Below, piece after piece: positions 14,265 through 19,609 of a DNA stretch of 39,298 bases. Where the stretch lies: the NCBI GenBank assembly GCA_945889645.1, contig CAMDCA010000017.1, forward strand, positions 1 through 39,298, in the 5' to 3' direction. Both the position numbers and the translations under genes were made by a program. Numbering within the stretch: the stretch's first letter is position 1; each line of letters opens with the position of its first letter. The DNA comes from Rhizobium sp. Q54. GTDB taxonomy: Bacteria > Pseudomonadota > Alphaproteobacteria > UBA2966 > CAIVPW01. Under the pieces are notes generated by a model. The model saw only the letters and a program-made list of their open reading frames with translations, made no database searches and was not told the DNA's origin.

Positions 14265-14930
14265 TCAGGCGGGACGACTCTCGATGCGGACCTCGGCGCG
14301 CGCGAGCCGCCGATACAGATCGCGCCGCCGCTTCATCGGCTGCCAGTCGTAAAGCAGCGTCTCGATGGCCTTCCAACATGCCACCCAGCCGAGGAGGATG
14401 AGGCTCTCTTCCGTCAGACGGGCGAGTCCTTCCGCTTCGATCATGTTGTCGGCGATCTGGCTCAGCGCCAGGCATGCGGCGAGGACCGGCAAGCCAATCC
14501 ACAAGTAGCGGCGGCCAAGACGCACCTCCTCGCGCCGTTCGCGTTCAGCCATGTCGGCGCGTTCACCGAAGTAGTGCCCAATTGCCCGCCCGACGTCCGC
14601 CTCCTTCGCAACGCGGCCCTCCGCGTCGGGCAGGTGCAGGACGATGCGGATCTCGCTGCGCCGCGGCAGGTCACGCGCCCAACTGGCGATGAATTCCTCG
14701 GCACTGTCGTCCAGGTCACGCTCGTGGAACGGGGCCGGATCGAAGGAATTGAACAGCTGGCCCAACTCGCGAAGCTGCACGTCGATCACCCCGGACGAGA
14801 CGGTCACAACACGTGCCTCAACTTGGGGAGGCGGTGCAGTTCCTGGGTCGCATCCCGCGCACGGCGGCGCTCCGGCTTGGCGTGCCAGCCATGGACCAGC
14901 TCGCCCGTCGATGTCGAAGAAGACCTTCAT
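14265..14930 (-). CDS. Membrane protein of unknown function, last gene of the dnaG-rpoD unit
   Basis: 221 residues if started at the ATG at 14930, 8 bases after the stop of the chorismate mutase-cupin gene. A GTG at 14807 has a better ribosome site (TGAGG, 8 bases away) and would give 180 residues, beginning just before the conserved-looking core VIDVQLRELGQLFNSFDPAPFHERDLDDSAEEFIASWARDL. That core is followed by LPDAEGR and a C-terminal half with two membrane helices (YLWIGLPVLAACLALSQIA; ESLILLGWVACWKAIETLLYDW), then a basic tail. I recall similar alphaproteobacterial proteins but no function. The start is uncertain; the gene is real. Confidence 0.75.
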   Translation of the reverse strand: MKVFFDIDGRAGPWLARQAGAPPCAGCDPGTAPPPQVEARVVTVSSGVIDVQLRELGQLFNSFDPAPFHERDLDDSAEEFIASWARDLPRRSEIRIVLHLPDAEGRVAKEADVGRAIGHYFGERADMAERERREEVRLGRRYLWIGLPVLAACLALSQIADNMIEAEGLARLTEESLILLGWVACWKAIETLLYDWQPMKRRRDLYRRLARAEVRIESRPA

Positions 14931-14938
14931 AGCGCCGA

Positions 14939-15760
14939 CTAGTACGGCCGGCCGTCCTTGTGCGTGAACACCCAGCGACCGTCGGCGCTCTGGATTGCCC
15001 GGAGATCGTCATCCGGGTAGGCGCCCTCATCCCCAGCTGTACGGTCGCCGACTTCGAGGTAGACGACGTCCTGCTCCGTCCGGTTCATCAAGTGGTGCGC
15101 GCGACCGCCCGCGGCAAAGCCGGCGCACATGCCGGGGCGCAAGGCGACCTCACCCTCATCGGTGACCAGGGTTGGGTCGCCCTCAAGGACGAGGATGAAC
15201 TCGTCCTGCTTGCTGTGCCGATGCAACATTGACGACTGGCGGCCGGGCGGCAGCGTGGTCAGGTTGACGCCGAAGTTCTTCAGCCCGAAGACGTTGCCGA
15301 GGCGGCGCCGAATGCGATGCTTGAGCAGGCTGTAGAAGGGTTCCGGCGAGACCGAGCGAACCGGATCCGGCGCTACCTCTGTGGCCCGCACTGCCAGTGG
15401 GCTTGCTTCGCGCTTGGCCGTAGCCGTCGGCGCCGAAGGCGGCCGCGCCAAGGCAATGTGCGCTTCTTCGAGCGCGCACGCCTCGTCGATGATGGCGCGC
15501 CAAAGGCGCCGCGCAGTCGCCGGATCGAGTCCGGCGGCGCGGGCGTGTGTTTCGACGCGGGACAGGACTGCCTCGATGCGGGCCGGCACGATCACCGGTT
15601 CGCCGCGCATCGCTTTGATGTCGCCGATCTGCTCGACCAGCACGAAGCGCCGGGCGAGAACGCGCACGAGCTCGGCGTCCGCGTCGTCGATCTCGGCGCG
15701 CAGCGCCGCCAAGCGGTCACCGCCGGCGGCCTGATTCTGGGTGATGGAGGGCTTGCTCAT
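14939..15760 (-). CDS. Chorismate mutase (AroQ-type) fused to a cupin domain
   Basis: 273 residues, start ATG 15760 with GGGAGG 6 bases upstream. Residues 16-100 are a chorismate mutase helical domain: LRAEIDDADAELVRVLARRF, EQIGDIKA, PARIEAVL and LWRAIIDEA, with R21, R38, K49 and R61 in the places of the substrate-binding residues. Chorismate mutase converts chorismate to prephenate for Phe/Tyr synthesis. After a Pro/Ala linker (106-138), residues about 160-273 form a cupin with motif 1 HRHSKQDEFILVLEG (H180, H182, E187) and motif 2 PGMCAGFAAGGRAHHLMN (H222, N226), so a metal site is likely. The reading frame is continuous across both. The two parts normally occur as separate proteins. It lies 24 bases downstream of rpoD. 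The domain calls are secure; the joint function is unknown. Confidence 0.88.
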   Translation of the reverse strand: MSKPSITQNQAAGGDRLAALRAEIDDADAELVRVLARRFVLVEQIGDIKAMRGEPVIVPARIEAVLSRVETHARAAGLDPATARRLWRAIIDEACALEEAHIALARPPSAPTATAKREASPLAVRATEVAPDPVRSVSPEPFYSLLKHRIRRRLGNVFGLKNFGVNLTTLPPGRQSSMLHRHSKQDEFILVLEGDPTLVTDEGEVALRPGMCAGFAAGGRAHHLMNRTEQDVVYLEVGDRTAGDEGAYPDDDLRAIQSADGRWVFTHKDGRPY

Positions 15761-15784: not shown

Positions 15785-17767
<1,983 letters not shown>

Positions 17768-17845
17768 CTTGCGTTTTCCGTCCTGGGTCAAAGGCCAGTC
17801 CTAACCGTCACGCGCGAGAGCGGCCGAGCCGCATATCCGCACGCA

Positions 17846-19609
17846 TCAAAACCAATGGTGTTCGATCTCGCCCGCGGCACGCTGGTGCTGCGCCAGCACA
17901 TCGCGCCATTGCTCTTCAACGTCGGCCAGCAACGCTTCGGGCCGCACGAACTTCTCCACCATGCTCAGCGATTCCTGCGCCAGCCGGTCAGCGACCGTTC
18001 GCGCGGTGCCGGTGAGTTGGGCCCGCAGACCAGCGGAGTCAAGGCTCTCACCCAATGGCGCGATGTCTAGGAGGCCCTGCCGCAGGGTGTCAAGCTCGCT
18101 ATCCGCAAGGCCGATGTGGCCCAGCTCATCCTCGATCGTCTTGAGCAGGCCCGGATGGTTAACGAGGGCCGCCATCAACACCCGCTCGCGTTGCCGCGGG
18201 CTGCCGCCAGAGCCTGCACCGAGGGCCTTGCCCGAAGACAGCTTGGGCCGCAGCGCAACCGCGCGGAACCCTCGCCGTCCCTCGCCCCGCCCCTCACCCC
18301 GGAAGTCGCCGCGGAACTCGCGCCGCGCCTCGGCCGCCCGGGTCGCGGGGGGAAAGGCCGCCTGCAGCTGCATCGAGAAGTGCCGCTTGTAGTACTCGCG
18401 CACAACCGGGTGTGCGATCTCCCGCACCAGTTCCTTGAGGTCGCTCTGCAGCCCGGCGCGGCGTTCGGGGGTGCTGAAGTCGCCCGTGGCCGCGGTGCGC
18501 CACAGAACGTCGGACAACGGAATGGCGGCTTCCAGCGCCGCCTTGACCTCGGCGCCGCGGCCGGCCCGCACCAGGCTGTCCGGGTCCTCGCCGGCCGGCA
18601 GGGCGGCAAAGCGCAAGGAATGGCCCGGCTTGAGCAGCGGTAGCGCATGGCGTGCCGCGCGGACCGCGGCCTGCCAGCCGGCCGAATCGCCATCGAGGCA
18701 GACGATCGGTTCCGGCGCCATGCGCCACAGTTCTTCCAGTTGGCGATCGGACACCGCGGTGCCGAGCGGCGCCACCGCGGCCGGATAGCCGGCCAGGGTC
18801 AGCGCGATGACGTCCGTGTAGCCCTCGCACAACACCACCGTACCGGCGTCCCGCGCCGCGGCACGGGCGGCGGCGAGGTTGTAGAGCAGCGTGCCCTTGT
18901 GGAAGAGCGTCGTCTCCGGCGAGTTGAGGTACTTGGGCTTGGCGTCGCCCAGGGTGCGCCCACCGAACGCGACGGTGCGGCCGCGCGAATCGGTGATCGG
19001 GAACATGACGCGGTCGCGGAAACGATCGTAGGTGTCGCGGCCGTCCTCCGGCTTGATGATCAGGCCCGCATCGAGCAGCAGCTTCTCCGACATACCGCGG
19101 CCGACGAACGTGTCCTTCAGAGACGTGCGCGCTTCGGGCGCGTAGCCGATCTTGAACTGCGTGACGACCGCCGCACCCAGCTTGCGCGATTCCAGATACG
19201 TGCGTGCCTCGGCACCGCCGCGCTGGCGCAGCTGGTCGGCGAACCAGTCCGCCGCGGCCTGCAGCGCCTTGTACAAGTCGGCGCGCTCGTCGCGGTCCTC
19301 GGCGTCGCGCGGCGTGCGCGCCGGCATTGCCACGCCGGCATCGGCGGCGAGCCGCTCCACCGCTTCGGGGAATTCCAATCCCTCGGTCTTCATCACAAAG
19401 TCGAACAGGCTTCCGTGCGCCTGGCACCCGAAGCAGTGATAGAAGCCCTTGTCCTCATTCACCGTGAATGAGGGCGATTTCTCATGATGGAAGGGGCAAA
19501 GCCCTGTGTACTCACGGCCGCGCTTGGTGAGCTTGACCTTCTTGCCGACGACCTGAGCGATCGGCACTCGCGCACGGATCTCGTCGAGGAAAGCCTCGGA
19601 GAACGCCAC
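17846..19609 (-). CDS. dnaG: DNA primase DnaG
   Basis: Synthesises RNA primers at the replication fork, recruited by DnaB helicase. 587 residues. The N-terminal zinc ribbon has C38, H41, C59 and C62 (GLCPFHHEKSPSF, HCFGCQAHG). The catalytic core includes YAPEARTSLK, RVMFPITDSRGR and GGRTLGDAKPKYLNSPET. The TOPRIM motif has E263 (CEGYTDVI) and D307/D309 (CLDGDSAGWQAA). The C-terminal helicase-interacting part (from about 460) follows a Gly/Arg-rich linker (RREFRGDFRGEGRGEGRRGF). The start is GTG at 19609, 6 bases after the yqeY stop, with no clear ribosome site, suggesting coupled translation. rpoD follows after 78 bases. Confidence 0.97.
   Translation of the reverse strand: MAFSEAFLDEIRARVPIAQVVGKKVKLTKRGREYTGLCPFHHEKSPSFTVNEDKGFYHCFGCQAHGSLFDFVMKTEGLEFPEAVERLAADAGVAMPARTPRDAEDRDERADLYKALQAAADWFADQLRQRGGAEARTYLESRKLGAAVVTQFKIGYAPEARTSLKDTFVGRGMSEKLLLDAGLIIKPEDGRDTYDRFRDRVMFPITDSRGRTVAFGGRTLGDAKPKYLNSPETTLFHKGTLLYNLAAARAAARDAGTVVLCEGYTDVIALTLAGYPAAVAPLGTAVSDRQLEELWRMAPEPIVCLDGDSAGWQAAVRAARHALPLLKPGHSLRFAALPAGEDPDSLVRAGRGAEVKAALEAAIPLSDVLWRTAATGDFSTPERRAGLQSDLKELVREIAHPVVREYYKRHFSMQLQAAFPPATRAAEARREFRGDFRGEGRGEGRRGFRAVALRPKLSSGKALGAGSGGSPRQRERVLMAALVNHPGLLKTIEDELGHIGLADSELDTLRQGLLDIAPLGESLDSAGLRAQLTGTARTVADRLAQESLSMVEKFVRPEALLADVEEQWRDVLAQHQRAAGEIEHHWF

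Follow-up and report, generated by a model that had tools for sequence, protein, structure and literature searches.

Directly behind an rpoD-like sigma factor gene of the uncultured alphaproteobacterium Rhizobium sp. Q54, a single open reading frame joins an AroQ-type chorismate mutase (CM) to a cupin with a predicted metal site, and this fusion is a real, rare and apparently undescribed domain pair, known from a single genome. Within the window (the whole stretch of DNA that was analysed, 39,298 nucleotides; Table 1), it looks like a gene fusion of one species rather than an established new enzyme. We give a probability of roughly 0.6 to a lineage-specific gene fusion, in which the CM would make prephenate and the cupin would keep its own activity, the two halves being co-produced and not chemically coupled.

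Table 1. Features of the fused gene and its surroundings, in positions of the window
Feature	Position	Strand	Remarks
Fused CM-cupin gene	14939..15760	minus	273 aa, ATG start; ORF call and Pfam
CM_2 (AroQ-type) domain	15464..15703	minus	aa 20-99, Pfam
Linker, Pro/Ala-rich	15395..15457	minus	about aa 102-122; CM genes of sister genomes stop near its start or middle
Cupin module	14942..15400	minus	aa 121-273; spans the entire stand-alone cupin
rpoD-like sigma factor gene	15785..17791	minus	directly upstream of the fused gene
dnaG-like primase gene	17846..19609	minus	upstream of rpoD
HAD-type hydrolase remnant	14804..14930	minus	first ~25 and last ~12 codons left
Conserved membrane-like protein	14265..14807	minus	follows CM or HAD in G002-G004

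One frame with two domains, and its rarity

The frame runs for 273 codons without an internal stop, and both domains it encodes are above their Pfam cut-offs, CM_2 (type II CM family) with E 5e-21 and 75.2 bits against a cut-off of 27, and Cupin_2 (amino acids 167-237) with E 2.6e-13 and 49.9 bits against 27.2. One frame with these two domains had been claimed from the original reading of the DNA. The upstream order is YqeY-like and dnaG-like ORFs, then the rpoD-like ORF, then the fused gene, the neighbours carrying names that we assume from sequence alone; the start of the fused ORF is preceded by a purine-rich stretch, and the gap after the rpoD-like ORF is 24 bp. Neither half shows decay, and both are full length. 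The linker between them has a position-2 GC of 0.80, compared with 0.48 and 0.46 in the two domains, and may, given this difference from both, be recent coding sequence. In an AlphaFold2 model of the fused protein (pTM 0.58), three helices (residues 6-52, 58-75 and 80-105) precede a linker whose pLDDT drops under 50 at residues 111-116 and a cupin mostly above 90; blocks of residues 1-120 are at 58-83, the alignment having held just three other CM sequences, and the CM part is therefore weakly modelled. The predicted structure fits two independent domains.

It is highly improbable that two separate genes were united artificially, through chimeric assembly of the contig or an error in the frame. 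The genome is a draft of 101 contigs, with further indels in genes on contigs C16, C23 and C46, but both flanks of the fused gene are collinear with sister genomes, the cupin fits precisely into the space from the end of the CM to the start codon of the HAD gene, it differs from the stand-alone copy on C23 (70% identity), and a chimera would require two joins, both at gene borders. Neither a chance join nor one by frameshift is likely, given two complete halves and flanks whose order matches the sisters.

The partnership had been described as unusual, and wider searches bear this out. With the full protein as query, and a hit counted as fused when a single open frame covered both halves (up to six candidates scored per genome), 189 of 385 genomes of the class had a match at 1e-5 and 47 of 398 genomes of the phylum had one at 1e-20; in both sets, which overlap, the genome studied here was alone in carrying the fusion. 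The long matches in the class that were inspected as candidates for further fusions turned out to be stand-alone CMs (G065, G290) or stand-alone cupins (G191, G070); beyond these four there are matches in G081 (C67) and G642 (61-273, three stops), and others starting at amino acids 84-105. At 80 named loci with related cupins, no CM match reached E 1e-3 or better, and five weak CM matches up to E 10 were none of them positioned as in a fusion. No match came from phage records, and plasmid records gave 41, none spanning 80% of the query.

The literature points the same way within its scope: titles and the starts of abstracts on chorismate mutase with cupin, fusion or cupin domain showed no CM-cupin fusion, and none was among the matches listed on CM domain architectures. 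A search on BacB with cupin and prephenate found nothing, and the word cupin is absent from PMC4921024 and from the accessible portion of PMC10520331. In the known bifunctional CMs (CM-PDT, CM-PDH, DAHPS-CM, CM-CDT) the partner is an enzyme of the shikimate/aromatic pathway; here, Pfam matches above cut-off name the cupin alone beside CM_2. The exported CM-CDT enzymes, so far as the accessible text of PMC10520331 describes them, are likewise a very rare and lineage-limited CM fusion, but with the next pathway enzyme as the partner instead of a cupin.

The chorismate mutase half and the aromatic pathway

Four basic residues of the CM half (R21, R38, K49 and R61) are invariant across seven aligned CMs and are the counterparts of R11, R28, K39 and R51 of E. 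coli CM, the E. coli numbering being transferred through a gapless alignment. Relative to the CM domain of E. coli PheA (1ecm, AroQ-alpha), the fused CM shares the CM_2 profile, the three-helix layout and these four catalytic residues, and differs in carrying Val58, Ile62, Ala94 and Glu98 at the sites of Asp48, Glu52, Ser84 and Gln88. The original prediction of an AroQ-type CM with its key residues is thus upheld for the basic residues, and not for the other active-site positions of the E. coli enzyme. The site of Glu52, which contacts the chorismate hydroxyl, is Ile or Val in all seven aligned CMs. Among the AroQ sequences compared in the available part of PMC12329711, the Asp48 site is Asp in 57% and the Glu52 site is Glu in 81%; since Glu at this site is common, not universal, Ile62 lowers the claim of activity and not that of family membership. 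The subgroup of the fused CM lacks the Asp48 and Glu52 of E. coli and has Glu replacing Gln88, which counts against certainty about its activity; conversion of chorismate to prephenate is a prediction, and the CM half is most likely a prephenate supplier. Going by work on E. coli and yeast CM, Glu98 would be expected to favour activity at low pH. The best NCBIfam match, over the full length, is the CM-like subfamily TIGR01803, where the fused CM, at 62.2 bits, stays under the cut-off of 73.35, in contrast to the CM of another alphaproteobacterium, which passes at 75.5. The latter, a similar CM from a distant genome (L152:4900-5220), represents another setting for the subgroup of the fused CM, being flanked on both sides by genes that we presume to be pyruvate-dehydrogenase-like.

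A pericyclic enzyme other than CM, such as an isochorismate-pyruvate lyase like PchB, has to be considered for this half, and we judge it very improbable. PchB structures occur among the profile matches of the CM half, and Val58 and Ile62 resemble the non-acidic Ala51 and Val55 that PchB has at the Asp48 and Glu52 sites, where CMs mostly carry Asp and Glu (PMC12329711, in the part available). PchB has a tyrosine (Tyr87) at the Ser84 site, however, whereas Ala94 is small there, as in CMs, and the isochorismate lyase profile NF005475 scores the fused CM at 38 bits, its cut-off being 126. No match to isochorismate synthase lies above the cut-off in any of the five genomes searched (the genome studied here being 95.5% complete); each has a single isochorismate-synthase-like match, all sub-cut-off, which in this genome is trpE, and with no isochorismate synthase found a lyase activity is unlikely.

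The fused-type, rpoD-linked CM is moreover the sole CM_2 found in two genomes of the same family (G005 and G006), and AroH-type CMs are absent from all five genomes searched; these findings make it the probable housekeeping CM of the family to which these genomes belong. A second CM gene, a possibility that had been raised for the genome of the fusion, does exist on contig C16, in truncated form. It is of PRK06034 type, adjoins what we take to be hisC- and tyrA-like sequence, and encodes 135 aa compared with 287 aa in the G001 relative; the interior is lost and an end fragment remains, with the CM domain still open, and its relatives in G001-G004 have open frames of 296-368 aa. At this site (L119:6400-7130, minus strand), the last codons persist in another frame. 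The C16 gene being truncated, the fused protein would be the main intact CM of the genome, where a match to prephenate dehydratase was found on contig C60.

Irregular genes occur at other loci as well. On C46 (L120:7000-7600, minus strand), a further cupin gene is frame-shifted and without its middle, which brings to three the genes of this genome that have lost an internal stretch while retaining both ends. This may be how genes generally decay here, or a trait of the assembly. The stand-alone cupin on C23 has an aligned first ATG that meets a stop after six codons (L116:4735-4760), and a start codon further along may be the one used.

The locus behind rpoD and the origin of the cupin

A place within the dnaG-rpoD unit had been called unexpected, which the relatives contradict: a stand-alone CM lies directly behind rpoD wherever the locus was recovered, in five related genomes of five, three of the same genus (G002, G003, G004) and two of the same family (G005, G006). 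G001 gave weak rpoD matches only, as other sigma factors give, and G007 gave no match to the fused protein. Because the CM is separate at this position in the relatives, and no other fusion was found, we regard the CM behind rpoD as ancestral and the cupin as the newcomer. In G003 and G004 the CM is followed by an ORF for a HAD-type hydrolase of 212 aa and then by the membrane-like gene, which in G002 stands directly behind the CM. Just a few codons past the point where the sisters' CM ends (KR, then stop), the N-terminal sequence of the stand-alone cupin starts (PLAV in G004).

The remnant of the HAD gene in the window has a frame shift near its start. In the intact HAD gene of G004, GGACCTG flanks both borders of the stretch lost in the window, where the sequence is GGAACTG, a pattern as for deletion between short repeats. 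The probable GTG start of the membrane-like gene lies across the HAD stop, and the protein gave no Pfam match when scanned with a longer start; repeats around the locus are of short, weak families only.

The genome carries several cupins, the fused one among them. In a tree of 109 cupins, the fused cupin is nested in the genus clade, and the cupins of G003 and G004 group apart from the fused cupin, which joins the pair of G002 and C23 (support 100/97 for the group of these three). It is 70-71% identical to each of these four stand-alone cupins, with pairwise dS of 0.91-1.48 and dN/dS of 0.17-0.25, values by which it is an old paralogue, not a fresh copy. For the fused CM against the CMs of G003, G004 and G002, dS is 0.65, 0.64 and 1.07, and dN/dS is 0.29, 0.29 and 0.23. 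Both halves are marked by purifying selection, although with the fusion in a single genome dN/dS mostly reflects the time before it. The order of this genome, G003/G004 and G002 in a small tree of three joined proteins is weakly supported (69), and any exact count of cupin duplications is provisional.

Two other origins were considered and dismissed. That the cupin came horizontally from some distant source is ruled out by its position inside the genus clade, and a recent duplication of the C23 cupin is contradicted by a synonymous distance of about 1.0, compared with 0.64 between the fused CM and that of G003, as well as by the grouping of C23 with the cupin of G002.

The sequence of events that we propose starts from the order rpoD, stand-alone CM, (HAD gene), membrane-like gene. 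A cupin gene would have been inserted behind the CM, or was an ancient neighbour there, and loss of the CM stop would then have joined the CM to the in-frame cupin ORF, giving a protein of two domains connected by a flexible linker. Its CM half would dimerise and make prephenate on the way to phenylalanine and tyrosine. The cupin half would keep its ancestral metal-dependent activity, and the two would share their production behind rpoD, without chemical coupling. On this reading the join would be an accident of the lineage, retained since neither half suffers.

The cupin half and the question of coupling

The predicted metal ligands of the cupin, three histidines and one glutamate (H180, H182, E187 and H222), can all be found in the sequence and hardly vary across the family alignment, and the complete ligand motifs first read from the DNA are thereby confirmed. 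In a structure search whose listed rows concern mainly the cupin half, the closest solved relative was 3i7d (Z 23.2, 1.4 A over 151 residues, 40% identity), the cupin SPO2919, deposited as a sugar phosphate isomerase and, unlike the fused cupin, stand-alone; a literature search by PDB codes found no paper on it. TM1459, DddK, RemF, BacB and others lie at Z 13-14 and do not discriminate between functions. Related cupins have no theme among their neighbours, judging from a scan of 45 co-directional ORFs, taken from 151 that a rough ORF rule had called; SelR, the most frequent family, accounted for 4 of the 45. No function assigned to the cupin family was found.

The broader proposal, that the cupin as a metalloenzyme uses prephenate or some other product of the CM, or else switches the CM in a metal-linked way, so that a new two-step or regulated branch-point enzyme would be co-made with the housekeeping sigma factor, appears unlikely. 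Taken alone, the first form of it, a two-step enzyme whose cupin acts on prephenate or another product of chorismate, is decidedly unlikely. The bicupin BacB, which we take to act in bacilysin synthesis downstream of prephenate, is among the fold matches (Z 13.2), yet it is just 13% identical, at rank 27, and tied with many cupins of other functions. The stand-alone relatives of the fused cupin are widespread and usually not beside aromatic-pathway genes (one isochorismatase and one PhzF-like among the 45 neighbours), and several cupins, not the fused copy alone, are present in its genome. Other CM fusions do unite pathway neighbours, as described in the available text of PMC10520331, but the same text reports no catalytic benefit of the fusion in CM-CDT, though its steps adjoin in the pathway, and for this reason the mere fact of fusion says little in favour of channelling. 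The original suggestion of a cupin acting on prephenate finds no support, its closest relatives being stand-alone cupins with no recurring aromatic-pathway neighbour.

Regulation is the other form that coupling could take, with the cupin as a ligand-binding domain of the CM, like the ACT domains in PheA, and this we consider quite improbable. Cupins act as sensors in regulators, one cupin of an XRE regulator is among the fold matches, and fused domains commonly control CM enzymes (PMC10520331, as far as available). Against this stand a complete metal site and the descent of the cupin from a stand-alone family, not from a sensor domain. The preferred reading therefore remains that of co-produced halves, the cupin probably retaining a predicted metal-dependent function of its own, without acting on prephenate.

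CM fusions are a known kind of protein, and the cupin partner is new among the genomes, families and literature searched. If the two domains do cooperate, this would give a widespread orphan cupin family its first function. If they do not, the gene would be a clean case of a non-pathway domain captured by the gene of a housekeeping enzyme, with the state before the fusion preserved in sister genomes.
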